Positions 4,683 through 61,639 of a stretch of DNA of 64,000 nucleotides are shown piece after piece (position 1 is the stretch's first letter; each line of letters begins with the position of its first letter). A program made the position numbers and the translations under genes. The stretch covers positions 2,191,001 through 2,255,000 of the forward strand of contig NC_090126.1 of the NCBI RefSeq assembly GCF_023973825.1, read 5' to 3'. Below the pieces are notes generated by a model. It saw only the letters and a list, made by a program, of their open reading frames with translations. It ran no database searches and was not told the DNA's origin. The stretch is from Plasmodium brasilianum (lineage: Eukaryota > Apicomplexa > Aconoidasida > Haemosporida > Plasmodiidae).

Positions 4683-5937
4683 ATATGTACTGTTGAAAAT
4701 TCACCTGATGATGGTATATTTTACATTTAAATTTTAAAGCAATTTCTACGATTGGACAACGAATTAACATGACGATTTTTTTATTTTTTCCTAGTATAAT
4801 GTTCAGGAATTTTTTAAGTGAATATTTAGACAAATGTTGTTAGGAAGTTTACAATTTTGTAAATTTCTGTCTTCAAATTTAATGCACTATTTTAATTCGC
4901 AATTCTTACGGCATGCACATTTGCTTTGTTTTTCATCGTTTTTCATCGTTTTTCTGCGCCTTTCATCAATTTTGTTTATTTTTCTTTGATGTCCTTTTTC
5001 CGTTTTGATTTTGTTTTATTCTGTTTTGCATTATTTTTTTGTATTACATTTTTGCTTTACTTTTTTGCTTTACGTTTTTGCTTCAATTTTTTTCTTATTT
5101 TTCCTTTCCCCATTGAAAAGTGTGAGGAAATTAAACGTTATATACGCATAAAATGTGTATAGGAAATTTTGACTTCTTTTGAAAACGACGTTTTCAAAAC
5201 AAAAATTAAAAATCAATGTTTCTAAAACATACGTACATTTAACAATAACGTAGAACAAAAACAAATTTCTAGTTAAAAAAAAAAATATATTATTCAGGAC
5301 ATTTTAACTTTATAACTTGTCAACGTTTTAACCGCTAAACTTTTTAACCGTTTATCTTCACTGTGTGCGTAATTTTATAAACACGTGATATTTACGAATA
5401 AATGGAACTTTTCTTCTAAATAGAAAATTCATGTATTATTTCTTTCTAATTTAAAAAATTAGCAAAGAAATAAATAAAAGTTTACTATATACACTTATTT
5501 TTGTTTTACCATTATATTACCCTTTTCATTTCTTCCTTTGTATTGCAATAAAAACATGCAAAGTAAACTGTCTTTTGTTTTATATATAACACTGAGTAAA
5601 ATTATTTAAAAAACACGAAAAGTTATGTGAAATTTTTTGAAAACCTCAAGTTTTTTAAAAATTTAGAAATATTTAGAAAACTTTTAAAAACATTATTATA
5701 ACCTTTTTTTTATCTTTTTTTTATTTCTCTATTTATTTATTCATAGTAATTTTATAGGAAAGATAATATAATTTAAAGAAAAAAAAAAAAAACAAAAAAA
5801 AAAACGTAAGAATTATGTTTACACAACATAAAACTTATTTTTTTTTTTTTTTTTTAATTATCACTTCTCCTACTGCTATTATTTAAAAAAAAAAAATTAT
5901 TTTATACTCCATTTTTACGTTATTTTTATTTTTTTTG

Positions 5938-18100: not shown

Positions 18101-18242
18101 TTGTTACACTTTTATTTGTTAAGTTGAAGGTTGAAGTGAATGTTGAGGTGTAATAGTTTCTTTTTTTTAATAGGCAAAAATATTCCTTGAAAAGGAGAAA
18201 TGTGTGAATAACAACAAGGAGTATACTCGTTTGCCCTTTCAT
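15139..18242 (-). CDS. Tas-like aldo-keto reductase, degenerate active site, frameshifted at a poly-A run
   Basis: The reading frame is broken at the 20-base homopolymer 16460-16479. Upstream 18242-16480 gives about 588 residues and downstream 16458-15139 gives 439. One extra A (or two fewer) would restore one frame of about 1,035 residues. The N-terminus is a hydrophobic signal-like segment (MKGQTSILLVVIHTFLLF), followed by a basic and then a Lys/Glu-rich extension. The aldo-keto reductase barrel starts near residue 373 (YRKLGESNLCVSEICIGTSM), continues through GINFFDICEYDPFP and VRHIAVSNESVWGIYEW, and after the break ILCVQNLYNLLHRN and PLVPYGLLAGGILTGKYL. Closest in style to bacterial Tas/YajO-type AKRs. 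The tetrad looks damaged: the catalytic Lys position reads INLRM, the His position reads TIDLPER, and the Tyr is displaced by one. A C-terminal extension of about 200 residues follows the fold. Function may be non-catalytic (inference). Confidence 0.85.
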
Positions 18243-29169: not shown

Positions 29170-29480
29170 ATATATATGTGTATTTGTTTGAATGTTTTTG
29201 TATGTACTTATTCGTATGTACGTAAGTGTATGTATGTATGTATGTATGTATGTATGTATGCATATGTACGTAAGTGTATGTATGTATGCATTTGTACGTA
29301 TGTATAAGTATGTATGTGTGCATATGTACGTAAGTGTATGTATGTATGTATGCATTTGTACGTATGTATAAGTATGTATGCGCGCATTTGTACTTAAGTG
29401 TAAGCATGTAAGCGCGCATTTGTACTTAAGTGTAAGCATGTAAGCGCGCATATGTACTTAAGTGTAAGCATGTAAGCGTG
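29170..29480. repeat. Compound array: TATG-based units then 32-bp units
   Basis: The left part is built of GTACGTAAGTGTATGTATG-type units of variable length. The right part (about 29390-29480) is three near-identical 32-base units containing TACTTAAGTGTAAGCATG and AAGCGCGCAT. The array ends some 80 bases before the giant gene's start codon, so it lies in the 5' UTR or core promoter. Confidence 0.85.
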
Positions 29481-29559
29481 CATTTGTATGTACGTACATG
29501 TATGTGTGTGTGCTTACATGTCGTAATTTTATTTTGAAAAAACAACTTTGCAAATAAAT

Positions 29560-32500
29560 ATGAGCAACTACATATGGAATAACACGTATTCGTTAGAGTT
29601 TTTAAGTGAAGACTTCTACGATTTAAATATAAGTACAAAGGACAATGTGTATGAAATAGTGAAAAGGAAGAAAGACGGAAACGAGGTGGAGAATTTGAAT
29701 ATAAATATTAGTAATCACATATGTATGTTTGTTCAGTTATTAGACAATCTGTTAGGTAAGATAAGTTATAACAATAGTCCAATCAACGATACGTTAAATT
29801 ATAAGAAATTATTTGATGTGTTTAATTTTATTAAGAATCAGCTATATAATTGTGATTACAGTTTGTTTTTAAGAATATATTCTATTTATTATACCTACAA
29901 TCATCGAAAAAATGGCTATCTAGATGTGAACAATTTGTATTCATTCATTTTAGATATAATAAATAAAATTGAAAATTTAAATGAGAATAATTTCTTAATA
30001 TTACCAGGGGGATTTTATTTACAAAAAGAAAAGTTGTTAGTAAAAATTTTATATATTATACATAAAAAAAATAATCTATATAGTTTTGCTGTTTTAAACA
30101 ATTCTATATATGGTATTCAATACCATTCGTTCAAAGTGGATGATATAGATAACTTGGGTGTTCTACTAAGAGATGTCATATTATGTATAAAAAATATTAA
30201 CAAAAATTACTTAACAAATTCATTATTTTGGTTATGTTTATATCGTTTGTATATATTTCCAAATACAGAAAATGTTGATATATTATATCAGATATTATTG
30301 CCCTATTTAAATAATTCGTTTTTAACAAATAACTGGAATTTAAGTAACAACAAAACTGTTCGAGTAGTTGATCACACAGGTAGTAAAGATGGATCTTCTG
30401 ACTTAAGCAAAGATATTTACCCCAGTGATAGTACCACAAGTATAGAGGCAAATAAAGTTTCAAATTTTAAAATTTACAATGAATCGGTAAATCCAGGAGG
30501 AGGGAATACTTCTAACCAGGCTAATTATTCTAACATTTTGTATGGCAATCAATATAACTTAAGCGATTTGAATGGTCTACATGACAAATCTAGTGGCCTG
30601 AAGAGTACAGATAATTTAGTAGCGCTTAGAACAATAAATAGTGCAAACAGTACGAACAAGTTTGACAAAATGGACGGTTTTAATCAGATGAGTGGTTTGG
30701 ACAATTTTGGCAATGTGTACCATAACGGTGATAGTAAGACGCATCCTACTGCTAACCATTTTAATGGAATTGATTTGGGGCATGCTACATTTTACAGTAA
30801 TGAGGAAGGTAAAAACATGTTCACTAATAACATTTTTAACGATAACATACATGGAAACATGCGGGAGGATAAACATATGAATTATTACGGATCGAGAAAT
30901 GAGAGAATGAAAAAAGGAAAGACAACAAAAGAAAATGATAAATATGGAGGTATATATGTTAATATATATAAAAATAAATTTACTTCCTTTTCAATGAGTT
31001 TATATTATTCTATAATATATATGTTGAAAGTTCTGAACATTCAGGAGGAAGATATTGAGGTATGTAAAATTTTTATATATTATAGTATTGTTTTGAAGTT
31101 ATGTGATGACCTGTTCAGGCTTGATCAAACCGAACGGAAAGAAGCAAAAGCGGAAAATAGAGGCAGGGGTAGTGATGGGAAATATAGCAGCACTAACACT
31201 AATAACAACAGCAATAACAATAACGATAGCAATCAGGTGTACGATAGTATTAGTTATGGCAGTTTCAATGGTAAAGGTAATTACAGTAACGATTACTTCT
31301 ACAACGACACTTACAATTACAATCAGAGTCAGAACTACAGCCATAACTACAGCCATAACTACAGCAACAACCAGAGCTACAATTCTGTTAATAACAGAGG
31401 AGGATTTCCCAATGGAAATGGTGGAAATAATAATAATACCAATGAGTACAATTCCCACGCAGCAGAAAACCTTTTCAGTAGGAACAACGAAAGGAAGAGT
31501 AGCAACAGCAAGATAGATCGTGTCTTTTTTGTTTTCCTGGATATGAGTGTAAGAAAGTTGTGTGTGCTTTTCCATATATATTTTTACAAAATGAAAGTAG
31601 GTATATATGATATTAAGAAAATAATTAATAGTGATATTTTGAATGATATATTGAAAAAGGTGTTATTTGTGAAATATATGTATAACAAGATGGAAGTAAA
31701 ATTATATTCAGATTTAACATTAAATGTTGATATTATAATAAATAGAAACTACAACAATTCTATAAAGTTTCCTATGTATGTAAAATTTGAAGAAGAATTA
31801 CATAAAAATTATCGTAAAATTGAAATTAAAAAAGATATTAATATTCCTATATCTTTTTATATTTCCAAAAGGACTGTTAATACATTTAATGATTTATATA
31901 TTATATTATATCAAACTAATTTAATTACAAATATTTTAATAAATCAAAAAAGATATATAAGACATTGTTACTTGTTAGCCTTTTCTTTTATTAGTCACAT
32001 AATAAATAATGTTTTACCATCTCCTAAACATTTTATTTTTTTATCAAAATTTCACACAATGAATAAAGCTTTACAGGCAAGCATTTTTAATGAAATATAT
32101 CACATGCACAATAACATATATTTTATAACATGCTCCATAAATGAAAATAAGCAAATAGTAATGTATAAAATTATTAACTGTTCCATGTTACTATTTTTAT
32201 ACGATTTTTTGTTAAGGATTCCTTGTGTTGATATTTGTTCAATTTTTTCAATTCATTATAACGGATTTTCGTCTAAACCTAGTAGACCTATATGCCATTG
32301 TAGATCAAAGGATAGGCAGCAGAATCATCGGGAAAAGGGAATGGGGGATAAAAAACATTTTATCCATGGAGAAAAGGAAAGAAGATCCGCTAACGACTGC
32401 AATGTTGGTATATTGAGTCCAAGTTGTAGCATTAGCAATAGCAATGGTACTAGTAATGGTAATGGCAATGGTTTCAATTTGAATAAGTTAAACATCAGTA

Positions 32501-35500
32501 TACCTTGTAGCAGTTCTAAGAGTGGTCATGGTGTGCAAACTCGTGTAAAAAGTTTGAACGTAGCAGGCAAATATTCACAAAGTAATGCAAACAATAATGA
32601 TAGCTACTCATCGTTAGATGAATGCATGCATAAAACTGAGGACTCCCTGAAACTGTCAGGCTATTGTATTGACATATCGGTATTAGAATGCTTTAGTAAC
32701 TATATTTTAATAATAAACCCTAAATTGAATATAATAAGATCAGATGTTATTGAATATTTTTACAAAATTAATGAAAAGAAAATTAACAAGAACAGTCAGT
32801 TGTTTTTGTTTGAAAAAAGTGGGGACATAAATACTAGTGAAATAGAAATATTAGAGAATATAAGTTTAGATCTAGGATTAGATAGAAAAAAAAATAATAT
32901 AATAGAATATTATTGTGGAGAAAATCAATTATTTAAACAATTAGTACCTGAGTTTTATCATTTAAGAGATATGCTATTCTTATTTAAGTCCTATATGTGT
33001 CCATATATTGACAAATTACCTCCTGTAAGGGTATATAAATATGATGATATTAACTTGAAATTTACTTATAAAAATAAATTATATATTAGTGTATTTAATA
33101 GGAAAATTGATATATGTGGATATATGTGTCAGAATAAAGATACCAAGTTAAATTTCTTTTCCTTCATTTATCAATTTATGCAATCATATGAAAATAAAAA
33201 AAATAATTGCATATTAACATATTCCAATCCGAATATGTACACAAATACTTATATTGAAAATGAACTAGATGTTTTGTATGTAAACGATTTACCTTTTTTT
33301 CATCCATCTTTAGATTTAAGGGATGTAGAAATTTTGCTTCAATATTTGACTGTACCTTATATTAGGATACCATTAATTTTAGAATTTTTTTGTGATAAAA
33401 AGAGAATAAAAAGTTTTCAGTCTTTTGACATTCAACAATTATTATTGTGTATTTTGTTTGAACCGTACATATTTAAAAATAAATATAAAACTATTCAAGA
33501 GGATAATTTTATTCCTTCAAAGGATAGAAATATATTTGCAACCAAATACGGTCTATTAATTAATGAACTAATTCTAAGCCCAAAGAATATTTTATGTAGT
33601 ATTTACACATATCTGGAATTACTCTTCAGTTTTGATAAGGAAAATAGTAATAGCGGAAGAGTTAATATTGTTTTTATCATCATGATATGTACATATGTCA
33701 ACTCGTACATAAAATTAATCGTTGAAACGAATAAGGAAATCAGATTTAATTTGGAAAACATTAAAAATATACTTGTGAAGATTGGGTTGGCCAACAGAGA
33801 GAAGATTTTATCTCGTTGTGGTAAAGACAAGGAACCAAGTGGAAGTAGAACTAAAAGTAGAAATAGAAGTAAGAACGAAAGAGCAGGAAGAGGGGGAAGA
33901 AAAAGGAAAAAACAAATGAAAAGAAAAATTCGTACACTGAATAAGCTTAGAAAAAAACTCATAAAAAATGAATTATACTGTTCGGATGAGGTTTTATTAC
34001 ATCTAGATACGTATTATAAAAAAATAAAAACAAAATTAGAAAATGAAATAATAGAAATTTTATTAAAATATATTAGAATATGTGTACAGAAGAATGATAT
34101 AACCACATGTTGTATTTATCATGGATGTATTTTGTTAATATATAAGGACATAAAGTTTAGAGAGCTAAATAAAAGTAATGCAAAGAATTTATTATCCTCC
34201 ATATTTTTTATCTTAACATACTATAATTTTACTGCTGAAACGAATTCTGCTGATTTAAAAAATATATATGGATTAGGTTCCCTTTTTGTTAATACAAATG
34301 ATCATGTTGAGAACACTGTAAAAATGGTTAAGAAGTATGAAAGGACACCTAAGGATATGCTTAATGATACGAATAAACAGAATGAGGAGAATACTTTTTC
34401 TCTTTTGATTAAAACCTTTTCCTTATGTGAATGTGATATCTTTATTTCAATACATAAACAAAGAAATATGTTGTTAAAATATTTGGAAAAAAATGAAATG
34501 GATCGAAATGTTATATTTGAACATACTATTCACATATGCGCATGTGTTCATGAAAATAATAAAAATGTGTATAATCGTACAATTAGTAAATACAATTCTA
34601 ATATCTTCCTAAATTTTCACTCAAATGAAAATGTTATAAGAAAATGGTTACCTGCGCATAAATTTAAGCACATTGGAATTTATACCATAGAAAATGCTCA
34701 TAATGAGATGAATGCTACACGTGTGAAGGAAAAACAGAGAGATAAAATTGAGGTGGATAAAAACAGAGGGACTAACACGAATTACTATTTCACGTCCTCC
34801 ACTTCGCCATCCTCGACCATCTCATCCGTTTCGTCTGCTTCCTTCGATTCGTTGAATTCAGTCGATACGTTCAATACATCTTCGTCCCTTAGATCGTTTC
34901 ATAGAAACAATGATGATGATGCTGATTATATGTCCAAAGGGGTGGAGAAGGGGGAGAGGGAAGTAGTAGGTGAAGAGGGGAATGAAAAATTTTCATTCTC
35001 TGTCGATAATGCTAGAGTTAGGAATGATCTTAGACCAGAATATGAAGCTGAAAAAAGAGAAGGGTTATCTGGCACCCTTGACAAGATGGGAGATGGAACA
35101 AATAAGGATGATGATAATGTCATTATAAGCACACAGATGAAAGATAGTGAAATGATTACTATTTTCGAGGGTAATAATGAACATGTTGTGGGGGAAAAAG
35201 GTAAGGAAGTATGTTCTAAAAAGCAGGAAAATGATAAGATGAAGAAAGAGAAAAACAAAAAGGACAATGGGGTGGAAGAGATGGCTATCAGATTTAAAGG
35301 GAGTAGAAAAAAAAAAAGATACAGCGAATATTTAATGGACTGGGCAGATCAGGGCAATAGCATCAGTAATAACAATGGTTACATATATCATAGTAACAAC
35401 TGCAGCGCTAAACGTAGCGATAACAACAATGGGAGTGATGGGAAGAATGCAGGGGTGAACCCGCTGCACGATACGGAATCTATGCACAACAACACGCAGA

Positions 35501-38500
35501 ACAATATACTAAATTTTCCTTCGTTTTTTAAAAATAATGAGAATTCTGTGGTCAATGAAAAGAGGAAAAAAAAAAAGGAAAGGAGGAAGAAGGATAGCAT
35601 TTTAAGTAATAACAAGTACATTTCGTATATTAAAAAAATTTTAAAGGAGAAGAATATTTTAATTAATTTACAGCTATTTACCTTTTCGTACAAAGATAAT
35701 AATATTATCACGTTAAATGAAAACATTAAGAAGTTTAAAAGCTATAGAGATGTTTTTATGTACAGCAAGAATTATATGAACACGGACAGGAGAAAAAAAG
35801 TACATAAAATGAAAAAAAATATTAAAGTGCTTATTACTCAGTCTTACCAAAATTTCTGCACATTTAATATTATAGGGAAAAAGCATAACTTAGAAGTATG
35901 GAGAAATTCGAAAAAAGTGACAATGAAAAATTTGATGAGTTATGAATATGACAAGTCCAAAATATTTTACATCAAAAGTACTAGTCTTCTAAATAACATG
36001 AAATGTTTGGGAAATAGCAATATTATCGGTAACAGTAATATTAACAGTTACAATAACAGTAATATGAGCAGTTACAATAACAGCAATAATATCAGTAACA
36101 ATATTGGTAACAGTAACGGTAATGACAATGGTAATAGTGTTAGTAATAGGAATAGGAATGATGAGGAAGGTGGAGATGAGTTTAACAACAGAAGTATGAA
36201 TATGACAAGCTTCTATAATTTCCTGTCGGGTGAGGTAAAGAACGGGGTACTATACGAACAGGAGAATAATGATATATATATAAGAATCATATGGAAATAT
36301 AATACGAATGAATTAAATAAAATTAATGGGCATGATACGAAAGGTGCTAAAATGAATGCAGAGGAATATAAAGCAAGGGAAAATGCGTTGGACAAAAATG
36401 AAGATAATAGTTGCAAAAAAGATTACTACGATTTGAAATCATTCAATATAAATTACGAAACACAGAATATTGAGGGTTTATTTAATTTTAAATATGAAGA
36501 GAATCAGTATGATAGCAGTTTAATTAATACTACTGAGGAATCTTCCTTTAGTGACGAAACTAGGGTACTATCAAATGAAAACATTGAGTATAATAAGAAA
36601 GATGAGAAAATGGTAGTAACCAAATCGGTTAGAAGCAGTCCTAGCTCATCTGCTACTTATGAGACTAGTTTATGTAGTGATATTTCTGCACATTTAGATG
36701 AAGATTTGAATGATATTAATTACAAAAAGAAGAATGATATGGTAAGTGGTTCAGTCAAGGGAGTAAAAATAACAGATGCAATATATTATAAAAATAATAA
36801 TAAAAATATACAGAATAGTAAGGTAAAAGGTGCTATTAATAATATTGATAAAAACGAATTAGAGAAAAAAAATAAAAATAGAAAAAAAAATAGTGTCGAT
36901 TTGGAGGAATGCGGATTGAAAGAAATAATTTATCGAAAAGATATGGATTGTATATTTATTTATAGTATATATTTTAATATGAATGGATTTATAAAAAAGT
37001 TGTACTACTGTAGTGATGTAAAAAAGATATATTTCTCAACAAGTATAAACAGATGCAAGAATTTATTTTACCATTTTGAAAATAATAATGTACGTCTTTG
37101 CTACTATAACAGTAAAGAGAGTTATGAAAAATATACTATTTCTATATCTAGAAATATTTATAACAATATTCAAGTACAGACTTATTTGAATCCATGTTAT
37201 CTGTCTACGTTTGTTCCTAATATTCTCCTTCAGTACTACAACTTTTGGTATAATAATGATGATAGTTTAATAGGAGAAATAAAAAATGCAAAGAAAAATA
37301 AAAAGAATAAAAATTGTATTATCTACATAAAGCTCTTTAATAATCTTAGTAATGATGCATGGGAAGAGGAACATAATAATAACGTATCAAATGAACAAAA
37401 CACCAAAGGAACTAAATGCTTAAATATTTTTAAAAATGGGTTGTTCAAACATGATAAGAAGCCGAAATATAATTTTCCTTATGGTATTATTCAAAAATTA
37501 CGAATATTCAATAGACCAAAAAGTTCGAAAAAAATAACATCTCTAAGGATAAATGAAGATTATAAAGCCTTAACTTTTATTAATATTTTAAGTTATGAAA
37601 ACAATCAAGTTTATGATGATTTTTATAACATTCTTATGAAATTTGATCATATAACGTACATATTAATATATACGTTAAACGTTCCACCTTTATTTGATAA
37701 TCGAAAGGGTCCTTCCCCCTCGGATGTTAGCTTTGATAAGAGGAGACCACATTGCAGTGGTATTGTTAAAAATGTTCCTATTACGGTCGATTTAATCGAA
37801 ATTCCTAGGTTAAATTTAACACTGCGGAGGAATAACGTAGACATAAAGATCAGCAGCAATAAAGAAAGAGAGGGTAACAAGAACCGAAGTACTGACGGCA
37901 TCAAGGAAATCAGTAAAAATGGAAATAGTGGTGGAACAATCGATGGAACCACTGATGGTAACATTGGGGGAAGTGCCAACCCTAGTGGCAAGAAGAAGGA
38001 CGGCTGCAAATACTACTTCGAGGAACTGAACATGTTTTTGTACAACGGGAGCATGCAAAAGTACACGTATATTTATAACGTAATAAAAAAGATGAACAAC
38101 ACAGTACTATTACAAAATAGCAAAAATGATCTCTTTTTTTTGGTATCCTTATTAAATAAACCTTTTTTTTTGAATATTTCAAATTTGTATAAAGAGTTCA
38201 ACAAGAAAAATATTCACCTGTGCACATTATTAGAAAAACATATTAATGTTCTGTTGAAGAATTATATGTACGTTACTATTTATTACCATAATTTTAACAT
38301 CAACACAACTGTTAAAAAAAATGTGGATGTATTTAATGAAAATACAGAAAAGAATAACTGTTCAATGCAATATATTATTCTGTCTGTTCATAGTTCTAAG
38401 CTGTTTTTAAATTTTCGAAATTTATATAGTTGCTTTTTTTTTATTGTCAATAAATACCTGAACAAAGATCATGAGGAAGTAATGGAATATTGTAACAATT

Positions 38501-41500
38501 TAAGTATATGTAAAGAAGATATTAAAGAAATAAAATATTTATTAAATATATTAAATTATTGTGATAATACTATTTATTCAGATGTAGATTCTTGTGCATG
38601 CAGATTGAAAATCTTTTTGACCCTATCAAAACAAACGAAAGTAACTCTCCGAAAAAAAAGACATAGAGTTAGTGTAAAAAGAAATGCGTGGAATATGGAT
38701 GATTATTATAATATTTTTAATTATGTAAAATCGTTGTGGTATTTTGAAAAAACAGGAGAAAATGAAGACTCTAGTGGTAATGATATGAATATAAGTGAGG
38801 ATGATAATGATACTACTAATATGAAGGGTTTACTACTCTCACATGGTAAAACATCCAAAAGTACGAAAAGAAGAAATGTTAGCGATGCACATGATAATAG
38901 TGATACCAGCAGAAGCAGCTGGAGTAGTGAGGGTGGTGGTTACTACTCGTCGTCAAATAGCTTCTCATCCTATGATAGCAATTATGTGTCATCAGAAAAG
39001 GAGAATAAAAAAAAGGAACTTAATGCGCAGGAAAAAATTATTGTAGGGGATGAGGACGGGGGTAAGGAAAACATGAGCAGAAGAAATAGAAAAAAAATAA
39101 ATAAAATAAATAAATATTGTAATAATAATTATGATAGTAGAAATCAAAGTAGTTACACTAGTTGTCATAAAAGTAATACAAACAAAATGAATAAGAAGAA
39201 AAGAAATGCAGAAAGCGGTAAGAAAAAAGATCATCATCAACAAAGTGGGAAAAAAAAATCGTATAATGAAAGGGATACAGCTTATTATGAAAACTCAGAT
39301 AATAGTAAAAATGTGTATATATATTGGGATATAGTTAAAGACATTTTATTTTATATAAACAATTTAATATACATTAAAGCAAAGTGCAAATTAACCATTG
39401 ATGAAGAAATATTTTTATATCAAAATTGTAGTATTAATATACATAAATATAAATTAATATACAATAGATATATAATATTAAATAGTATAATAGAGTCCAA
39501 GTTCACCAGTGATAATTGCAATCCATTGTTCTTTTACAATATATTAAAAAAGAAGCAAATAGAAAATCAGAACAAGATGAAAAAGTATCAAATTGAATAT
39601 AGGAAAAGGAGTAGAATTGAAAGCAGCTATGCGAATCAAAAGATACATATGCATCTAGATGATACTAGTTACAGTAATACAGGAATAGTTACTAATAGTA
39701 AGAGAGGTGGTTATAATGATGAATATGGTATTAAAAAGAATGATGACACGTGGAAAAACAAGCTTTACAACAATGTGCTAAATCTAGAGAGTATACAAAA
39801 TAACATAACCCACTTGAAGAACTCATTTAATGGTAAAGAAGAAAAGCATATAAAGGAAGATCACTTGGTTGTATCTATTAATATTCCGAAAATTGAAACA
39901 GTAAAATATATTAACAACATAGATGAAAACATTTTTATGAACATAAACCTGTACGACAATATAGGTAATATAATTAACAATATGTGTTATAAAAAAGTAG
40001 AAGATAAAAATAATGTGGAAGCGTTAACCTACTTAAACTCGTTAATAAACTCCTTAGGGATACAAAATTTTTTTATTATCTATAACTATTTTATGAATAA
40101 TTTGAATATAAGAATGGTTAAGGGAGAAAACACCTTTTTATATGGCAATTTGTTGGCAAGATATTTGTATTTTTATAATTATAATATTAGTCAGTATAGT
40201 AAAATAATTTACATATTTATTTTTATTATTAACCATCAGGAAGTCATAAGTATGTTACCAAAAATTGATGATCAAAAATTAAAAAAGAATTATTTGAATT
40301 TTTTTAAAACCAATGATTCTCTTTTTACCTTTTTCAATGATATTTTTAAATTTGTCCAAAACCTTCAAAAAGAAAAAAAAAAAAAAATAAATAAAAATAT
40401 CATTCCGTTAGTAGTAGACAATAACATTACCATTTCAACCTCCGATGTAACTATGTACCGTCTGATAATTAATATAAATGTAGATGATTATTTGTGTGAA
40501 AAGAGAATTATTTATCCCTTCCATATTAAGAATAACGTTCATGTGGGTAGTGAACTACTCAATGAGTTATGTTTTTGTCCTTTTAAGAAGTTGTACAAGT
40601 ATTTGAGGAAGGTTAAACGAAATTGTGTTGGTAGGATTGGTGGTAGTAGTAGTAGTAGTACTAGTAGTAGAAGTCGTGGAGGTGGAAGTGGAAGAAGGAG
40701 CCATGGTGGAAAGCACAACACTAAGGGCAAGGGTGAGAGCGCTTTACATAATAGAGATGACGGATGGGGGGACGAGTTCGATAATATAAAGCTCGAAAAT
40801 GAAGTAGAAAATTGTGATAAGAATAGTATTAACAGAAGGAATATTCTAAATTTTGATTTTGAAGAGAATAATTTATCTTGTCAAAATACGTATTCGAAAA
40901 ATTTCATAAAGAATATGAAAGTTGACTATAACAGGCACCTAGAATATGAAAAAAAAAAAGTAGACTATGAATTCATTGGTTTCAGTGCTAATGAAATAAA
41001 AATGACTTTTAGCAATATTAAAAAGTTGAAGGAGTATGTAAATATGTTTGTAAGTATAAAGGATATATTATTAGAAATATTCGTAGGCGATAATAAATTA
41101 CTTGAGTGTATAAATGAATTTATGGAGGAAGCGGAAAACGCAAATAGAAACATATTGAACATGGAGAACAGCAAAATTCACCATCAAAATTTGGGAAGAG
41201 CTGAAAACGTTGATATGTTTTATGTAAACAATAGTCAAGAAAGTGAACAAATGAGGAGCAATCATATGAACCCAAGGAGTGGAAAAAGTTATGCCGGTAA
41301 TGTTACAGATTTGTCTACAAGTAACACTGTTGGTGTATATGATACGAGAGGGGGAAGTGTGCATACTGGTAGGAGTAGTAATAACAATGTAAGTAGCAGT
41401 GATATTATCGATCCTAGTAAAAATAACTATGATAACATTTTTAATACGCTAGACGGGGGTCATCTAAGGGACGATGCGCAGGCATATACCAATTACTTTT

Positions 41501-44500
41501 TATACAAATTCGGAGTATTAGGAAAAGCGGAAAAGGAGATAAACTTGAAAATATTAATAAGTTGTTTTATGTCAAAATATGCGTACGAATATTTAATTAT
41601 GATAAATCCAAATTTAAAAAAAGAAAACTCGGAAAAATTTATTAACATCGTTTTGCTGTATATGTTAATAATGAACAGGAAAATGTTTCTACATGAATGT
41701 ATTAGTAGTGTAATAAACATTCTAAATATATTTAAGGTATACAATTTGAAATTAAAAATTTTAAAGCAAAAAGAGAAATATATAAAATCAACTACAAGTA
41801 GTGATGTTAATTCAGATGTCCTGTTGAACAGATTGATGAATAAACAAGAGAAAATAATAAATAAAGCTATTAATACAATTCAGTTGGGAACAAAGAATTT
41901 GACGCAATTGACCTTAACAGAGAGGCATTATTTCACAATGAGAAGCAAATGCAAAAATCGAAAAATAGTTTATAAAAATTTGATGCACGACTCGGATTCG
42001 TCCGATGTATCTACGTGCTATTTTTCCAGCGATCAGTATGAAGAGGGAGTGGAACGGTCCAAGCGAGTGGATCAGGTGGCACAGTTTGAAGGAAAGGAGA
42101 GAAATAAAGCGGATGGAAATACAATTGACGAATTGGGTAATTGGGCAAGTAATTTGGGAGAAAATTGGGGTATTAGCTGGACGAATGAAGAGGATCAAAA
42201 AAATATGACTTCTTCACAATGCAAATTGGCTAATCTTGGAATGGGTGAAGAAGAGCAGAAGAGTAAAAAAGGAGAATGCTTGATTGAGATAAAAGAAGGA
42301 GATGATAATTGTTACTATACTTATGACCCCAGATTACTAATATTTGAATATACGAACAATTTAATTATTAGAAAAAAACAAGTAAAGATGATAAAAAAGT
42401 TAAAAAGAGATTTTTTAAAAAAGAAAAAGCAATACTGTTATCAAATAATAATGGGAGGAGGTAAGACGACTGTATTATCTCCTCTATATTTTTTAATTTT
42501 TTCTAACTACTTTTTAATATTTAATATGTGTCCACAGCCGTTAATACACTTTACAATAAATACATTTCGCTCAAGATTTTCATCAATCATAAGAAAGAAT
42601 ATATTTTATTTTAATTTTAGTCGTTATAATAATATTACAACAGATTTGTACATAAGTTTATGTAGTGCATTAGAAAATAAGTACATATTAGTGACTAGTC
42701 CAACATGCATAAAATCCTTATTTTTAAAATTGGTTAATACTATTCAGGAGTTGAATAATATTAAAACATTTGATATCATAAAGCAAAAAGCAAAAACGCA
42801 TATCACGGACGCATTGACAAAATTTTTGGGTTTCCAAAATGAAGATCATTCTATTAGTGTATCGAATGTAGCAAATTTGACAAATGTGGCGAATTTAGGA
42901 AATGTAGGTAGTATGACTAATATGACTAGTGTAGCTAATGTAGTGTCCTTTAGAAACACAAACAGAAATATATCTACTCAAGGAGCGAGCAGTGGATATG
43001 GTTCATCATCAATGGATTATAATATGTTGAAAAAACAACTTGATTTGTCAGTAAGAATATTCGATATATTAAATAAAAGTATATTATTAATAGACGAAAT
43101 TGACAATGTGTTACATCCTTTAAAAAGCGAGCTACATTGGCCATATGGTATAAATAGAGATATAGATTTAGTTAACGTTGTTAGGAATTTTACCGATGTA
43201 TTTATGAATAACCCATATTTAAAATTTTTATATGACAAGAAAAATGATGACGTCGATATAAAGAATATCAAAATATCAGTTGTAAACCGAAACCAAGTTA
43301 GGAGCAATTTGGCTGCCCATATTAAGCAGTTAAAGGAGGTGGAGACAAAAAGAAATATTTCAAACCGGGTAAATTGCACGCACGATAATAGCGGAAACGA
43401 TGGGAACAGCTACAATAACTGTGGTAATTTCAACAACATCAATTACAATAACAGCAATTACAATAGCAGCAATTACAATAGCAGCAGTTACAACATCAGC
43501 AGTTACAACATCAGCAATTACAATAGCAGCAGTTACAACGCGTATGATGGTAACGCGTTTTCTAGGGAAAAAGGTAAGAGTAAAAATGTAATGGAAAGTA
43601 TGAACATCTCATATGGTACACATGCGTACAGGAAAGAAGACAGCAATGATTTGAGTGTAGTTAACAATAGTGCTTTAAAAACTGTGGGTAAGTACGGATC
43701 TATGAAAATGGTGAACAGCGCAGAAACGAATCATAGCTACTCGCATATCGACTTAAGTCTGTTCAGGTACAAACTAAGTTGGGTATTAATTGACTTTTTT
43801 TTTTATCCTGTGTGTAAGAAATTAACTATACCTATGAATGTTTGTTTTAATACTAATACAGATTATATTGAAGAATTACTACTTATTTTTGATAAAGAAG
43901 TACAAAAAGGTATAGATAATCATGACATTTCTATAATACCTCATTTTCATATTATTAACTTTAATTGGTATAATAACATAATTTGGTTAGTTGCTCGTTA
44001 TGTGTATTATTTTCTTTTGTCTTATAAAATTACGGGAGTATCCCAAAAAATGGTTGAATCTTATTTATGTATTCCTTTATGTATTGGGTATAATGATATA
44101 TGTGTGAACAATAAGTCGAATAATCAAACGGTTTTAAGTAACTCCACCATTAGACGACTGTTGAATATTAAGAAGATAAATGCAAAGTATAGCACTAATA
44201 ACGACAATTATGCAGTTGATTTAGATAATATGAACATGGGTGAAATGCATATACTCTCTAGTGATTATCACTTAAAAATTTTTGAAAAAATTAATGCCAT
44301 AGAATATGTATTCTGTAAAATGTTAAATCTCTGTCGCTTATATATAAATGGCATATTACCTTTCGTGTTTTCAAAAATTAATACTGTGCATTATGGTATC
44401 TTATCCGCTGAACAAATTAATAAGTGCCAAATAATTATGAGTAAAAGCAGGTATTTTCTAGCTGTGCCATATATAGGTAAAGATACCCCTTCCGATATGT

Positions 44501-47500
44501 CTGAGTACACAAATGTAGATATTGTTGTTTCTTTTACTATATTATCATATAGGTATCAAGGTATGAGATATTTTGATTTTATACTCTCCCTCAAAAACAT
44601 TTTATATAATTACTCTTTGGAAAAAGATTATGAACATATTCAAAGTGAATCAGATGATTCATCTATTTGTTCTGAATATTTGAGTGATGAGGAAAGTGTA
44701 GCAGGAAGTTACTGTCACCATAAGAAAAAGGAAAACAAAGATATACATAAAAAGAAAAATAAGAAACATACTAATAATGCACAAACAAATAGTCAAAATA
44801 GTATGGATGATGACAGTAGTTATACTAATACAAGTTATGTTAAGGAAAACAGCTCGTATTCTAGTATTCTAATTAAGAGCGATAAATCATCCAATACATC
44901 GGTTAAATGCAGCAGGTTGATACACAAAGAGGGAAAGGCTAACAATGGAGAAAATGAAAAACGAAATTGTTCTAACAGAGAAGCAAGCGGACATGCTGCA
45001 TCACATAAGGATAGAGGTAAAAGAAATGGTGCTAAAAAGAATAAACAAGGTGGCCACTTTAATAGTACTAAAAATAAGAGCATTAAGGAGGGGAAGAAGA
45101 ATGACAGAAATGATATTAGTGCAAATGGTAGAAGGAAGGTCAGAGGAAAAGACACCAAAAGAAGGGAAAAAAAGGATATAAAAAACATGTATTATCTATA
45201 CAAAGAAATAATAGAAACGAGTGGAGCTAAAATTAGAAAAACGAAAAAGGATATAAATAATAATAATTTCTTTTTTTATGATAATAACATAAAAAGGAGA
45301 ACAGAAAATATAAAAAGAAAGTCAGGAAATTATGTAGACACAATTGATAAAATAGATCTGAATGATAATGAAACACTGTATGATTTATACAATTTAACAC
45401 GTAAAAACCCCTTGTTAATTAGCTATTTTTTATTAGGTATAATATTAGAAAAATATATAAAGCATACAGAAAAGCAGTTGTCCTCAAATTCTCAGGATTT
45501 AACAAATAATGTCTTATTTAAATATGTAATAGGATATAGTGGAACAAGTAATGATATACTACCAGAAGAAATACATAAATGTAAATATGAAAAGGGAACA
45601 ATTGGATCGATTATCAACATTTTGAATGACACAAATATTGTGAATTTTATTTTTTTGCCATCCAAAATTTCCCCTATTCAAATATTAAAAAGTTTGAGTT
45701 ATTCTAAAATTAAATTTAATAGCCTTATCGATACAGGATATTTAATTAATAATATTTCCCCCAAAAAAGTAGCATACTATATTTTGCAATTTTTGGATTA
45801 CATCGATTGTTGCATTTATATTGACAATGGGAAGCATATGTGCATGCTGCCATTGGAAAAGAAAAAAAGAAAAACTAGGCGTAGAAGAAGAGAGGAAAAA
45901 AATGGAAGCAAACACATCTTACACAAGGAAAACCCAAAACGGGAGCATTTGGAAGGGATTACAGCAATGGAAGAGGTTACACAAGGAGAAATTATCAAGA
46001 CATCTATTGAAAATGGTGAAGAAAATAGTAAGGCGGATAGAAGTGTAAACAATAGAATAGGGGCATGTATAAGGGAACAAAAAGCAAAGAAAAAAAGAAA
46101 CATGTGGATGAAGAAAAAGTACAACAAACGTAGCAACAACAATAACAGAAACTATTATAACATTACGGAAAACAGAGGCAGTAATAACAATAGCGGAGGA
46201 AGTGCTGGCATGGAGAATAGTTTCAACATGAACGTGGAAATTATACCTCTACAGGACTGTTATGTACCGATTAAAAAGAGGTTTATTTATTTTGATCATA
46301 TAAATACCTTTGGACAAGATATAAAACAGTATGTAAATGCAAACAGTCTAGTTACAGTAAATATCGGAAATGACATTTCGTCATTTAGTCAAGGTGTTTT
46401 TCGATTGAGGTCTATAGGTATCAATCAGAAAATTTTTTTCTTAATCCCCTTATGCTTAGTTAAACTGATGAACATAAATACTAATCTGTTTAAGGATATG
46501 ATTTTTTCCTCTAAGAAGTGTAATGCAGACGATGCGCGTAGTAGTGAAGTGCCACTTAACGATATTTATAGCAAGAATGTTTTTAAAAAATTTAAAAGAG
46601 AAAAGAAGAAAATGCTCCAAGCATGCAATAAAAATTACAGTGAGGACAGTCAGACCGAATCGGAGCACAACATGAGCGATACCATTTTAGTTAGCAGTAG
46701 CAATAGAAGCAGCGGGGGCAGTGGAAGCAGTGATTATGAGAGCAGTGGTGATGATAGCAAGGATGGTTATAGCAATGGTTGTTACGAGAAAAGAGATAGT
46801 TACGATAAAAACAGTTTTAGCATGAATATGAGAAGAAAAGGAAGAAGAGAGGATGGAGATAGAAGAAGTTACAATTTCATTAATGAGAATGACGAGTGCA
46901 TGTTGATGATTGATTGTTATAATAGCATTTATTTGGACGAAAATACAAAAGGGGATGTTTTAAAAGAGTTGACCCATTACTTAATTTTAAATAATATAAA
47001 TAACAATATAAAACAGAGTGAACTCTTATGTGTACATGGAGTAGTGAATATTATAAAGAAGAAGAGCATAAAAATGTTAATAGACAATTATATAAATATT
47101 GGTGTTTTGAATTATAGGGACTATTTAGATATATTTAACACGAGCATAGATTTTGATATTCAGAATCAGGTGCCATCAAAAAGTAGTTCTTTATTATGTA
47201 TTGTTCAGTTAATAGAAAAATTTCAAAATATTTTTAGTAAAGAAGATGAACTATTTTTACAAGATATATTATATCGCTATTTCTGTTTACACTATGATTT
47301 TTCAAATAAAACAATTTTTATGTATTTTGATGCATTTTTTCCGCGTAAGGATTTTATGAAAAGTAATTTCCCCCAAATTATACTAGATTTATTTGAAAAG
47401 CTAAAAAAGATAAAAAAGGACAACTCTGTTTTGTCTTTCAAAAAGTGCTACAGAAGTAATTGTAATGATTACAATGGGGAGGATGACAATTCTATAGATA

Positions 47501-50500
47501 ACCATCTGTTCAGTTTAGAAAATGAACAGGAGAAAGAAAAAGAAAAAGAGAAGGAAAAGGAAAAGGAAAAGGAGAAGGAAAAAGAGAAGGAAAAAGAGAA
47601 GGAGAAGGAAAAAGAAGAGGAAAAAATACCTGAAGATCAAAAAAAGAAAAATGTCAAGTATAAAAAAGATGAATATAAATTATACAGATGGACAATTGAT
47701 GATATTAATACTGATTTGTTTGGTGCAAAAAAGGGGAAGAAGCAAGTAAATTATGATAAAAAGGAAGAAACGTACAATACTATTTCTTTAATAAATAACA
47801 AAGTTACAGAAACGTTTATGAGAATTCGGGATAGTCCTTTATTTATTCCACTGAATAAAATGTGTGTAAACGACATATTCTTAAATTTTCCGTCGTATGT
47901 ATATGTATCTAAAAATTTTATAAACTCGGATGCTATTAATACAAAGAAGGTGAAGAAGGTAAAAAACATTTTACTTGTAATCGAATGTGCGCACAAGGAA
48001 GTTGAAAATATTCGTTTTACGGAAAATAATAATTATGATATATACTCAGAAAAAGAAATTTTAAAAAGTATATGGGATATATTACAAGAAAATAATATGG
48101 AAGAAATTCTCAACATTTTAGATATCAACCCTTTTAAGTATTCTTACGATTTGACAAAATTGATACTTGATTATCTAGAAAAAAATAAAAATAAAAATGC
48201 AAGTTTTGTAAATTTTACATTCATATTAAATCAACTTGAATTGTATTTTAGTAGTAAAAATAAAAAGTATATAATTGTAAGTTTGCAAGAAGCAGAAACA
48301 TTGAGATACTACATTCATAAGAGGTATAGCATGGAAAAGGTAAATAAAGCCCTAGCCGATGATATAGGGGCTATATGTATGAACCAGCACAAAAGAAGTT
48401 TATCTTCAAATAAATGCTACACAACTAACGAAGCTGGAAGTAACACAAATGGTGGAATACAAATGAATAACGAATGGAAGCAAACTCGTACAAATGAGAA
48501 TTGTACAGGAGAAAAGAATAACATGGGTTCAAATGTGTTAAACTCCTTTAATGATAATACATCAAATATCGGTTTAACAAATGTGGATATGAACTTATTT
48601 GACATTTTTGACAAAAAGGGGGATAGCAACATAGGGGCAGATGGTAACCTAAACAGCGAGAAAATTGAAGAGAGTTGTAATAATATGAAGGACTACATAT
48701 CACATGATGTATCTATAACAGATGGATGGGGATTAAACAACAATCTTTCGAGCATATCGTTGGAGGATAAGGATAATGTGGATGGTGTTAGTGGTAACAA
48801 TGGAGGCAATAGTATCAGTAGTGCTAATTATGCTAACAGTACGAATGATAATTTAATCTTCGAAGATATGGAAATTCAAAATAAAAAGAAGAACTCTTCT
48901 AACATAGTAGCAATGAATAGCAGTAGTAAACAGGTTATTGGTAGAACACACAATTTGGAACTGTTGGATATATATGAAAAGGAAAAAATGAGGACGCGAA
49001 AAACAGAAGAGAAAAATTTATTTTCAGATGTACATATAAATATATACAATTACCATTTTTGGTTTACGCCTATTGAAATTACAGACAAAAATAATTTGAG
49101 AAAATATTTATCAAGACAGGTACAAATAGTTTATAGTGTGTGTAAGTTTTTTAACTCGGATAGAAAATTTATAGATGCTCATGTTAACTTACTATTACAG
49201 TATTTAAATTTTAATTCTCCAAAACATCGATTTAATTATTTTAATGAGTTATATTTATTAAGAAGAATGATGAAAGAAAATTTAAATAAAAGCTATAGTT
49301 ACAAGAGTTTAGAAAAACATGTGCTTATTCCTAAAAATGTAGAACTAGAAATTGCCGAAAAAAAATTATTCGAAGGAAATGGGGATATATATGCGTTTAA
49401 AATTATGCAACAAAAAGTGAGACAAAGCTTAAAAAAGAAACAGTTAACGTTGCAAGAAATTTTCGATAAAGATATAGATTACACATGTAGTAGGGAAGAT
49501 ATAAAAATTTTATTTGACTTTTTAAATATACATGATAATAATTCAGTTAATGTTCTCTTTGATATATTAGGATCAAATGTATCTCTTCAAGATTTATGTT
49601 TTTCACTTAATCCAACAGAAAATATGAAAAAATCGGATTTCCAGAAAGATCTATATGTAGATGAAAAAGCAAGATATGATGAGGATTTCATAAAAGAAGT
49701 GGATATGTGTTTAAAAAATTTTAAATTCTCCTTAACAGATCATACTTATTTTAAGCTGATATGGTCAGGTAAAATTTCCAATCAGAGAATTGTACAAGAT
49801 ATTGCTCTAGATAATAAAAAGGAGACGATTTTAATGAGTAATGAAAAGGTTCCTTATACAGAGAAATACGATGATAATGGTATCAGTACCCATGAAAAGG
49901 ATTTTTATAAAAACTCATCAACGAACGATTTGCTGAGCGATATATTTGGATTTAGCAAAATTCACAATAATAACAACAATATTATCAGCATTAATAATAA
50001 TGCTTATGTTAACAGCGTCAATAGTTGCAGTATCAATGGTAGCAATGTCAATGGAAGCAGTATCCATATAGGTAATAGTAAATATGAGCAGCAAGAGTTA
50101 GATGGAAACATGAAATATATTGTAAATAATTCTGAACAGTTTTATATATACGAGGCAGAAAACACGGATCCAAAGGACAGAGGAATGATGAGTAAAAATA
50201 AACACAAAATACTTTTTGGTCATTATGCATCAAATAAGGCAATGGATAATACTTTTCCAATACTTGAAATGACAGATGTATCTATAAACAGTATGTATAC
50301 AAGTGCATCTGCTAAAGAAGTTTTAAATTTATTCTTCCCTCATCCAAAAAAATATCTACTATTATGGCATGAAGATTATTCTATAAAAAATGTAGAGGAG
50401 TGCCTTCATATATGGAAACCAGTTCTCTCGTCTGCTCATTTTTCAAGTACAGTATTCCTAGGGTTTATTACAACCGTCGGGCCTCAACAACCCCCTTTAA

Positions 50501-51051
50501 ACAAAATTAGAGCAGTTCCAAAATCTCTAGTTAAAAATGTTCAAAACAAGAAATATGCTACCTTCTATTCTGACAATAGTTTTTCGATTGACAACTCCGG
50601 GGTGTTCAGTTCGTTGAACATTCACTTTTTCAGTAATAAGAAAGATTGAAAAATGTTAAGAATAAGAAGCTTGTACCCATCTCTGTGATAGTCGTTATTG
50701 TTTTGTTATTGTTATTGCGGTAGTATTAGTGGCAGTAGCAGTTGTGGCTGTTGTTACTTATATTTTATTTTTTTTCGTACAAGTATGCTTTGTATCTCTT
50801 TGCAAAAATGTTTCTCCATGTTGTCCTCATTTTTTTTTTTTTTTTTCTACACCTCATTTTTAGACGGATTGGACAACAAAAATTATGAAGAATTTCTATT
50901 TAGGAATTTCTCTTTAGACATTGTTGTCAAAATGAAAAAAATAAAATCAGTGAATGAAGATATCTTTAATTTATGGGGAGACGAGAAACAAGATTTTAGT
51001 GAAGAGGATGAGCCATCTTCTGAGTGGGAAGTAATACCTCGAAGCTTTTAA
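29560..51051 (+). CDS. Giant protein (about 7,086 aa) with SecA/SF2-like DUF3638-type NTPase core
   Basis: Two exons: 29560-50632 (ATG; the frame extends to a TTG at 29548) and 50864-51051. The donor CA|GTAATAAG and acceptor CATTTTTAG rebuild an Asn codon and replace the unspliced end with a 62-residue acidic C-terminus (ending EWEVIPRSF). Residues 1-4,250 are blocks of ordinary sequence separated by Asn/Ser/Gly/Lys-rich linkers. The core holds Walker A QIIMGGGKTTVLSP (G4299-T4303), Walker B ILLIDEIDNVLHP (D4512-D4515), YSGTSND (S5327), LIDTG (5389-5393), YFDHINTFGQDI (5577-5588) and SQGVFRLRSIG (5610-5620). This is the pattern of the eukaryotic DUF3638/DUF3645 proteins of fungi, amoebae and apicomplexans. 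Function of that family is not established. A Lys/Glu tract lies at about 5,991-6,022. No signal peptide or membrane helix is evident. Its length and single long exon are extreme even for Plasmodium. Confidence 0.93.
47530..47625 (+). repeat. Coding Lys-Glu repeat tract in the giant protein
   Basis: About 32 codons alternate GAR and AAR, giving (Glu-Lys)n just after the motor-like region. Codon choice varies (GAG/GAA, AAA/AAG), so the DNA is less regular than the peptide. Confidence 0.9.
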
Positions 51052-58250: not shown

Positions 58251-61200
58251 ATGAATAAGGTAGAGCAAAAAATTCATAAGAGATACAAAATAGTAAAGAA
58301 GGAAGAAGTGAATAACCGATATACCATTAACGATATAGAAGTGTATTTTCCGTACGAATTGTATGATTGTCAATATAATTATATGCTAAGTGTATTAAAT
58401 GCCTTAAAAAAAAAAGAAAATGCAATTTTAGAATCACCTACAGGGACAGGAAAGACGTTATGTTTGCTTTGTGCAAGTATAAGTTACTTAGTTGATGTTT
58501 TAGAAAAAAAAGGGTATTTTTCGGAAAATATAAATATCAGTGAAAATAATAAAAATGTATCATTTGAATTTAAGGAAAATAATAATAATGAAGAAAGTCC
58601 AAATAAAATAGTAAAGACTGATTTTCCAAAAATTATATATGCATCTAGAACCCATAGTCAGTTAAAGCAAGTAATAAAAGAATTAAAAAATGTGTATTTT
58701 ATAAAAAATAATGAAAAGTATAAATTATTAACAACTATATTAGGTTCAAGAGATCAGTTATGTGTTCATAATATTAATTATACATATAAAGGAACATTGT
58801 TAAATAATATGTGTAAGAGAACAAGGAAAAGTGGGGAATGTACATATCACAATGGATTGAAGCATTTATATAAAATAAAACATTTATTTACTACTCCAAT
58901 GGATGTAGAGGCCTTAAATGAAATAGGAAAAGGAAATTCTGTTGGACAGAATATTCATTTTTGTCCATTCTATGCAACTCGAGAAATTCAAAATGAATGT
59001 CATGTAATTTTATTACCTTATAATTATCTCTTTGAAGAAAGTACTAGGAAGATATTAAAATTGGACTTGGAGAATTGTATCATAATAATAGATGAAGGAC
59101 ACAACATTGAAAACGTTGCAGAAGATGCTGTGTCGTTTAAAATTAGAGATTCAGATTTGAACATATTTTTAGAAGCAATAAAAGCTACATTGACAATACT
59201 GGACAAGGTGAATGATGTCGATAAAGAAGCGAAAGAGAAAATAAATGTAGATGAATTGTTCATATTGAATAGAAGTATAATAGGTTTAATTACGTGGTTA
59301 AACAATGAAAAATTAGAAAAAAATGAAAGAAAAAAAATTAAAGAAAAACATAAAACATATGAAGGAAAACATATATTTGAAATATTTCAAAATAATAGTA
59401 TAAATATAACCAAGGAAAATTTCGAAAATTTTAATACTTTATTAACTTCTATGGTTGAACTGTTAAATAAATATATGAACGATTTCAAATTATCCCAAAT
59501 GGATATTAAAAATGTTAATAGATATATATCCTCAATAGATAGTATAAGAAAATCGTTGGGTATACTGTTTAGTGATATTGTAAGTAATTGTATAGAATAT
59601 TTTCAACTATATATTAATGAGGAAAAAGTGCCTTACACCGAATGTAGTGATGTAAATAAAGTATTTGACAATATGAAGAAATTCTCTAAAAATAAAACAA
59701 AAATTATGTACGATCAACAGAATTTTACCATGTGTAAAAATATATCATTATTATGTTTTTCTGCTACAGCTAGTTTATGTGGAATAATTAAAGAAAAAGT
59801 TAATTCTATTATTGTAACCTCAGGTACTTTATCACCTATTGAACCATTTTCCAAACAGCTAAGTGGTAATTACTTTTCTTTTAAACATATTTTAGAAAAT
59901 GATCATGTTATTAAATCACATCAGCTGTTTGTTGGATGTATGACTCATTATAACAATCAAATTTTACTGTCAACATATGAAAATAGGACTAATGAAAATT
60001 ATATAAGAGCATTAGGTAATTGTATATTTGATATTATTATATGCATACCGTTTGGGGTGTTAATATTTTTTTCTTCCTACAGCTCAATGACTGAAACAGT
60101 GAATGTATGGAAGAGGATGAAAATTTTTGATAAAATAAATTCATACAAAAAGATATTTGTGGAACCAAATAAAGCAAACGATTTGAAAGATATTTTGACT
60201 GAGTATGAACATATCATAAAAAAAAAAAAAAGGGAGCTATTCTTATGGGTGTATGTAGAGGTAAAATATCAGAAGGCATTGATTTTAAAGATGACTGTTG
60301 TAGGGGGGTTATAATATGTGGCCTCCCATATGGCAATATATATGATAGTAAAATAATATTTAAAAAAGAATTTTTGGATAATTTTAATTACGATTCGACC
60401 ACAAATAAAGATCTTACTACTCCTTCTACCACTGATTCGATTAGTTCATACAATACTGTGTCGTCTAAAGGAAATAAGTGGTATAATGAAGAAGCTATGA
60501 GATCTATTAACCAATCCATAGGCAGAGTTATAAGGCATAAAAATGATTATGGTTCAATATTTTTCTTGGATTCCAGATTTTCAAATAGTCAAAGAATTAA
60601 AGAAATTTCAAAATGGGTTAGGACTCATTTTCGTGTTTATAGAGATATTGAACAAATACAAAGTGATATTGATAAATTTTTTGAATTATTCAAAGGGATG
60701 AACAACCGAATGATGGAGAATAACGACAGCTCGACGGATAATAAGGACATGCATAGTAGTAACAATGGTAATAATAGTAACAACACGAACTGTGCCAATA
60801 ATAATATTGGTAACAGTAATAGTAATAAGGAGAAGGGGGAAGAGTACGATAAAAATAGTGCTCTGGGAAAAATAGGAAAAAATTTTCAAGATTGTTATAT
60901 TAAAAATGAAAAAACGAATAAAAATAAACATGACTTTTCTCAAAGTAAATTTGTTTTTAACCCTTCCAAAAAAATGAAAAATCAACCTAAAATTCTTAGC
61001 ATGATACAAAATATAACGAAGGGGAAAAACCAGGAAAAAAGTATTTACATAGACAACGATAATAATAATCATGGTGCCAATCATAATGACAATCATAATG
61101 ATAATCATATTGATAAGGAGCAAAATATTTTCAAAGCACATGAACAAGAAAACACCTCCAAGTTAGACAGCGCCAAGTCGCTCATTTCATCCTTTAGGGA

Positions 61201-61639
61201 AATTTTATCGAAAGAGATATACGACAAATTTTTCGAGCTTATCAAAGATACAAAGAAAAAAAGTAACGAAAATAAATATGAGATATTAATAAATAACATA
61301 CTTGGGTTGGTCGTTCAGAATTTTGTTGAAGTAAAAAAAGGGGAAAAAGTAAAACAGCCAGGGGATGAAGATGTAGATGTACTTGTAGATGGGGCCGCAT
61401 TCCAAGGGAAGGATGAAAAACAAAAGACACGCGTAGTTTTTAATGATATTATGAATGATCAACAGTTGAAAGATATATGGCAAATGCTAATTAGACTGAT
61501 TAACAACTTTTTCCCAGCAAAAGAAAAAGAAAAATGCTTTTTTATTCTTCAAAAGATATTTAAGGAAAGGGCAAACAATTTTAATGAATTAGAGAACTAT
61601 GTGTACAATTACAGGCTAGAAAAAATTGAGATTATCTAA
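58251..61639 (+). CDS. RTEL1/FANCJ-family Fe-S DNA helicase, frameshifted at a poly-A run
   Basis: The frame breaks inside the 14-base A run 60218-60231. Upstream codes to about residue 660 and downstream resumes as GAILMGVCRGKISEGIDFKD and runs to 61639. One additional A (or two fewer) rejoins them into about 1,129 residues. Features in order: RTEL1-like start FPYELYDCQYNYMLSVLNAL, Walker A ESPTGTGKT (E61-T69), YASRTHSQLKQVIKEL, the four Fe-S cysteines C171, C188, C197 and C238, DEGH box (281-284), VTSGTLSPIEPFSKQL, motif V and motif VI NQSIGRVIRHKNDYGS. A disordered Asn/Asp/His-rich region and a helical C-terminal domain follow. XPD-type 5'-3' helicases of this group unwind recombination intermediates, telomere loops or interstrand-crosslink structures. 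The N-terminus resembles RTEL1 more than FANCJ; I recall the P. falciparum copy being called FANCJ-like. Confidence 0.92.

Follow-up and report, generated by a model that had tools for sequence, protein, structure and literature searches.

What kind of machine does a malaria parasite make when it encodes, in one reading frame, a protein of some 7,000 residues that carries the ordered motifs of an ATP-driven motor? The question is raised by a 64,000-nucleotide stretch of Plasmodium brasilianum DNA (NCBI RefSeq assembly GCF_023973825.1, contig NC_090126.1, positions 2,191,001 to 2,255,000 of the forward strand; hereafter the window, from the first letter of which positions are counted), where a giant open reading frame (ORF) lies on the plus strand at 29527..50649. 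The answer to which the analysis points, with a probability of roughly 0.58, is that the product is a motor ATPase of the DUF3638/DUF3645 family, built on a SecA-like arrangement for pulling polypeptides. The components of this answer differ in firmness: an ATPase motor is very probable; an arrangement of the SecA type is probable; and a polypeptide client is favoured over other clients by a smaller degree.

The frame is uninterrupted from stop to stop (29527-50646; 7,040 codons plus the stop codon), with a first ATG at 29560 that gives a protein of 7,030 residues. An earlier, sequence-only reading of this DNA had described a giant protein of 7,086 residues; the giant stands, but the length does not, the single ORF read alone giving the figures above. 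The family assignment made in that reading holds. Both Pfam models match within the motif region, DUF3638 (PF12340) with an expectation value (E) of 4.6e-15 and 56 bits against a curated cut-off of 31, and DUF3645 (PF12359) with E 7.1e-7 and 28.9 bits against 25, while no further family rises above its cut-off in the scan of the ORF; AAA_21, below its own cut-off (E 0.0021), overlaps the Walker B part. With both domains over cut-off, the window protein belongs among the DUF3638/DUF3645 giants of eukaryotes and Chlamydiota, from the others of which Plasmodium is distinguished by long polar inserts.

The motor signature and its inserts

Six motif strings had been proposed, and each occurs once, in frame 0 of the plus strand and in the order claimed: motif I (Walker A), MGGGKT, at 42451..42468 (ORF residue 4309); motif II (Walker B), DEIDNVLHP, at 43093..43119 (residue 4523); motif III, YSGTSND, starting at 45535 (residue 5337); LIDTG, starting at 45724 (residue 5400); YFDHINTFGQDI, starting at 46288 (residue 5588); and motif VI, SQGVFRLRSIG, starting at 46387 (residue 5621). 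Counted from the first residue of motif I to the last of motif VI, the signature covers 1,323 residues, in agreement with the earlier estimate of about 1,320. In other words, motifs I, II, III, V and VI of superfamily 2 (SF2) are present in order with their catalytic residues.

The core that carries these motifs lies in four blocks, all on the plus strand. Block 1 (residues 4256-4550; 42292..43176) belongs to lobe 1, carries MGGGKTT (motif I) and DEID..LHPLKSEL (motif II), and holds an insert of its own at about residues 4404-4500. Block 2 (residues 4740-5044; 43744..44658) is the domain between motifs II and III, in which DUF3645 falls at about residues 4974-5004. Block 3 (residues 5219-5441; 45181..45849) contains the end of lobe 1 with YSGT and the start of lobe 2 with LIDTG, and block 4 (residues 5570-5719; 46234..46683) the remainder of lobe 2, where DHINTFGQDI (motif V) and motif VI are found. 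Between the blocks stand polar inserts at residues 4551-4739 (43177..43743), 5045-5218 (44659..45180) and 5442-5569 (45850..46233). The residues N, K, S, D, E, G, H and Q make up 52-70% of the sequence between blocks against 35-49% within them, which bears out the proposal that Asn/Ser/Lys-rich inserts stretch the motif spacing; these stretches of the Plasmodium protein would be insertions between core blocks. Matched to a profile of the eukaryotic core, the whole protein reaches E 2.4e-162, in four strong and collinear pieces (residues 4256-4550, 4740-5083, 5219-5441 and 5570-5719) and a weak fifth (residues 5803-5860), and of 167 columns whose conservation among 73 relatives is 90% or more, it has the identical residue at 98. 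The motor signature of the giant is more than chance.

Conservation in eukaryotic and bacterial relatives

The relatives listed number 135, from protein searches giving 3, 120 of 137 (two repeats) and 14. A complete core was found in 73 of 121, with the conserved columns G.GKT, DE.D..LHPLKSELN, SGT, D.G, H.TG.D and QG..R.R, and compact members such as P0001 and P0056 hold the entire motor without inserts. At 16 catalytic columns that were compared, the window giant and 11 of 11 other giants have the same residues. The P. knowlesi protein P0122 (6,495 residues) aligns with the window giant nearly end to end, at 57-59% identity. Between motifs V and VI, both the window (46360-46383) and P. knowlesi have NIGNDISS in place of the near-invariant GKDM.FRD, of which seven of seven Theileria and Cryptosporidium sequences retain DM.FRD; as far as these sequences tell, this is a Plasmodium-specific change beside the putative active site. 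The eukaryotic relatives also share an N-terminal domain, mostly helical, which in the giant covers residues about 1040-1430 (32644..33816, plus strand) and whose consensus across eukaryotic DUF3638 giants is DSELLLSYLTVPYLRIPL. It matched no Pfam family, and a search of 64 bacterial ORFs did not find it; by BLAST, it and the core stand in the same order in six of six giants, from P. knowlesi to Aureococcus.

In prokaryotes, a genome scan found relatives in two Chlamydiae assemblies, one of them a Parachlamydiaceae, and in one gammaproteobacterium. Within the Chlamydiota, DUF3638 is matched at E 0.001 in 93 of 190 genomes, 78 of which have a match over cut-off; a single genome can hold as many as 14 matches (G001 and others; L023-L038, L099-L138), many of which sit in frames of about 3,000-4,000 codons; these copies represent a large expansion. 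Another class that was sampled gave matches at E 0.001 in 7 of 274 genomes, 5 of them over cut-off. The eukaryotic core profile is matched by 60 of the 64 long bacterial ORFs, and along its length by 51. Across these 51 cores GK[TS], DE and [ST][GA]T are each present in every member, the D of motif IV in 49, the G and D of motif V in 46 and 44, respectively, and the Q, R and R of motif VI in 50 (one row is gapped). A quick tree sets the bacterial rows on one side of a branch with a Shimodaira-Hasegawa-like approximate likelihood ratio (SH-aLRT) of 100, and groups the window giant with the eukaryotes, also at SH-aLRT 100, on a long branch.

Some further features of these relatives may be recorded here. 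One bacterial giant (L024:1928-14530, plus strand) has a C-terminal end that resembles the NCBIfam model of LegK1, an effector kinase (E 3.5e-9, well short of the model's cut-off), a likeness that hints at a possible role of some bacterial giants within host cells. A 716-residue J-domain protein (L023:99-2246, minus strand) is encoded downstream of a bacterial giant, some 60 bases away, and DnaJ and DUF3638 are combined in one protein, P0021.

Predicted fold and its likeness to SecA

The fold was examined in a model predicted for the compact relative P0056 rather than for the window protein, and it is to this model that the structural comparisons refer. Both RecA-like lobes are present in it, their absence having been named beforehand as what would speak against a motor. 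The motifs occupy positions in the predicted secondary structure that suit an ATP site: motif I lies in the loop following strand 105-108, DE closes strand 269-273, SGT closes strand 650-655, motif V follows strand 780-784, and helix 812-822 contains the Q of motif VI and the first of its arginines. Among the 50 matches listed to solved structures, many of them the same few proteins repeated, SecA (PDB 2fsg, 5eul, 1tf5) takes ranks 1-23 and 27, and is the nearest solved overall fold to the model. The SecA/SF2-like motor suggested by the sequence-only reading is, in this regard, supported by a conserved set of motifs and a two-lobed model with SecA at the top of its matches; the signature is real and old, and the fold predicted for it is closest to that of SecA.

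As in SecA, the motifs G.GKT, DEVD, [FM][ST]GT, G.DI and Q...R follow in order over two RecA lobes, a large domain is placed between motifs II and III, and a helical region follows lobe 2. In SecA the preprotein cross-linking domain, which grips the substrate, sits between motifs II and III, and core block 2 with its DUF3645 matches it in position. The distance from motif II to motif III is 311 residues (bacterial median) and 390 (eukaryotic), as against 164-294 in SecA; Mfd and PriA have 26 and 36 residues there. Motifs V and VI are 24 residues apart in the family, as in Mfd, and 60 in SecA. From these spacings, therefore, the insertion resembles that of SecA, and lobe 2 is generic for SF2. 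Other differences from SecA are that the domain between motifs II and III carries DUF3645, that motif VI reads R.R in the giants and R..R in SecA, and that the motor is embedded in proteins of about 3,000-7,000 residues. Judged by its sequence, the giant is not a SecA.

Comparison of profiles gives suggestive but not significant alignments to both SecA and Mfd. Local alignments to SecA pair the P-loop, DEVD and GFSGT/GMTGT, those to Mfd cover the P-loop region and, in a separate stretch, motifs V-VI, and the top score for each exceeds all 250 column-shuffled controls and the reversed controls. Several results weaken these alignments, however. The hhalign probability is never higher than 25%; when blocks are shuffled with their short motifs intact, 7 of 60 controls equal the SecA score; the best SecA alignment goes out of register beyond motif II; the alignment at LIDTG is also out of register; and the motif III alignment (25.4) is level with a reversed control (25.0). 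No SecA Pfam model is among the matches to the giant ORF at E ≤ 1, and the global superposition of the P0056 model on SecA is poor.

Accessory domains and a possible mechanism

The accessory domains of the 135 relatives were read by hand from precomputed Pfam lists. Ubiquitin-linked domains occur in 25 proteins (UBA 10, NZF 9, WWE 3, RING 2 and AZUL 1); among the others are thioredoxin-like domains (15), DnaJ (1) and EF hands, which are common and uninformative about the client. No dedicated nucleic-acid-binding domain was recognised in the same lists, which hold one weak, sub-cut-off Agenet match. From the ubiquitin-linked and chaperone-type domains, together with the J-domain neighbour of a bacterial giant, we infer that a protein client is favoured.

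A mechanism can be outlined on this basis. ATP would be bound and hydrolysed between the two RecA-like lobes, with motifs I, II and III contributed by lobe 1 and motifs V and VI by lobe 2. The large domain inserted in lobe 1 between motifs II and III, of which DUF3645 is a part, and the helical part after lobe 2 would be placed like the substrate clamp and the helical scaffold of SecA. As the lobes opened and closed with ATP, the inserted domain would be displaced, and a client polypeptide caught between this domain and the helical part would be pulled or remodelled. The clients may be ubiquitinated or misfolded proteins, as the ubiquitin-binding and chaperone-type domains of some relatives suggest. 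As to translocase-like character, the predicted shape near SecA suggests an unrecognised eukaryotic protein-pulling machine.

Competing explanations

The same signature might belong to an SF2 translocase or helicase working on RNA or DNA, its likeness to SecA then being that of a shared motor with a convergent insert. This is unlikely, although a number of observations speak for it. Of the 17 genomes with only sub-cut-off DUF3638 matches, the six inspected gave four Mfd and two PriA proteins (identified by reading, not by profile), SF2 DNA translocases with which the family has its motor motifs in common and, in the case of Mfd, the V-VI spacing also. The profile alignment score is higher for Mfd (42.2, reached by none of 60 block-shuffled controls) than for SecA (35.6), and ResIII, an SF2 model, weakly overlaps DUF3638 in two of three bacterial giants scanned (E 0.012 and 0.17). 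When the motor lobes alone are compared, SecA is level with ALC1 to within one Z unit; the 12 best Foldseek hits include DinG, and NZF-type fingers are also able to bind RNA. What tells against nucleic acid is the rest of the structure: SecA as a whole scores 4.7 Z units higher than the best-placed nucleic-acid motor, with about 80-270 more residues aligned (415-603 versus 336), a margin that arises from parts outside the motor lobes. The accessory domains in the lists of the 135 relatives, ubiquitin-linked in 25 proteins and, apart from the weak Agenet match, in none recognisably dedicated to nucleic acids, tell in the same direction.

An ATP-gated scaffold or switch, whose lobes would do no more than alter their conformation and so regulate a giant binding platform, with no processive motion, would suit the very large size, the helical N-terminal domain (a low-confidence model) and the many protein-interaction domains of relatives. 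It is nevertheless improbable, since the glutamine and both arginines of motif VI are kept, with motifs III and V, in 12 of 12 giants tested (that of the window included), more than a pure binding switch needs. Least credible is a deubiquitinase, which is implied by the name 'ubiquitinyl hydrolase 1' that several relatives bear in UniRef and which the ubiquitin-binding domains of some might be thought to favour; the conserved core is that of an ATPase, no deubiquitinase domain appeared in Pfam scans (E ≤ 1) of the giant or of four relatives, three of them so named, and none was recognised in the precomputed lists of the 135. The name, it seems, is wrong.

Genomic setting and the probable Plasmodium falciparum counterpart

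The giant is flanked on one side by a gene for a Ddi1-like protein (9644-10765) and on the other by a DEAD_2 helicase, probably FANCJ/Rad3-like (58251-61639, plus strand), which is split across two overlapping ORFs with contiguous Helicase_C_2 halves. According to papers used here in excerpt, the P. falciparum Ddi1 is PF3D7_1409300 (PMC8621276) and the Rad3/FANCJ-like helicase PF3D7_1408400 (PMC4839739, PMC12873845), while PF3D7_1408700, a 'conserved Plasmodium protein, unknown function', is listed in an unheaded table with the figure 7182, read as residues (PMC9189790). The giant is probably the counterpart of PF3D7_1408700, because its length and the gene number order with Ddi1 and the helicase fit. 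Excerpts of a screen for apicoplast loss place PF3D7_1408700, with Ile4809Val, among 12 candidates and outside the five validated genes, and describe it as essential in a P. berghei screen but not in a P. falciparum piggyBac screen (PMC6380595).

Ordinary SecA (PF07517) gave no match at E ≤ 1 in a six-frame search of the assembly (31.4 Mb, 43 contigs), from which the organelle genome is possibly absent. Directly upstream of the giant ORF lies a low-complexity stretch rich in GTATGTAT/GTAAGTGTA (29220-29520). Elsewhere in the window, an aldo/keto reductase domain (15139-18242, minus strand) is split over two overlapping ORFs that match profile positions 1-155 and 155-284; the split reflects an intron, a frameshift or else an error in the sequence.

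Implications

In the open-access literature no report was found that assigns a motor function to the DUF3638/DUF3645 family, and one may exist elsewhere. A Tetrahymena paper of 2025 describes the mechanism of the DUF3638 domain as undefined in the part used here (PMC12615304), and the domain is also treated in PMC5423893, likewise used in part. A bolder and more doubtful extension is that the DUF3638 giants form, with SecA1 and SecA2, a third great lineage of SecA-type motors, shared by many protists and Chlamydiota, the eukaryotic members of which might act outside the Sec pathway as ubiquitin-linked extractors or unfoldases, with the Plasmodium protein serving apicoplast maintenance, perhaps by moving proteins across one of the membranes of that organelle. 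How Chlamydiota and eukaryotes came to share these giants is a question that the family itself raises. If true, a fold of the SecA type in a family so widespread among eukaryotes would provide a testable mechanism for proteins now called 'unknown' or 'ubiquitinyl hydrolase', and a malaria protein of 7,000 residues, listed as essential in P. berghei in the excerpts cited above, would become an ATPase with a defined active site.
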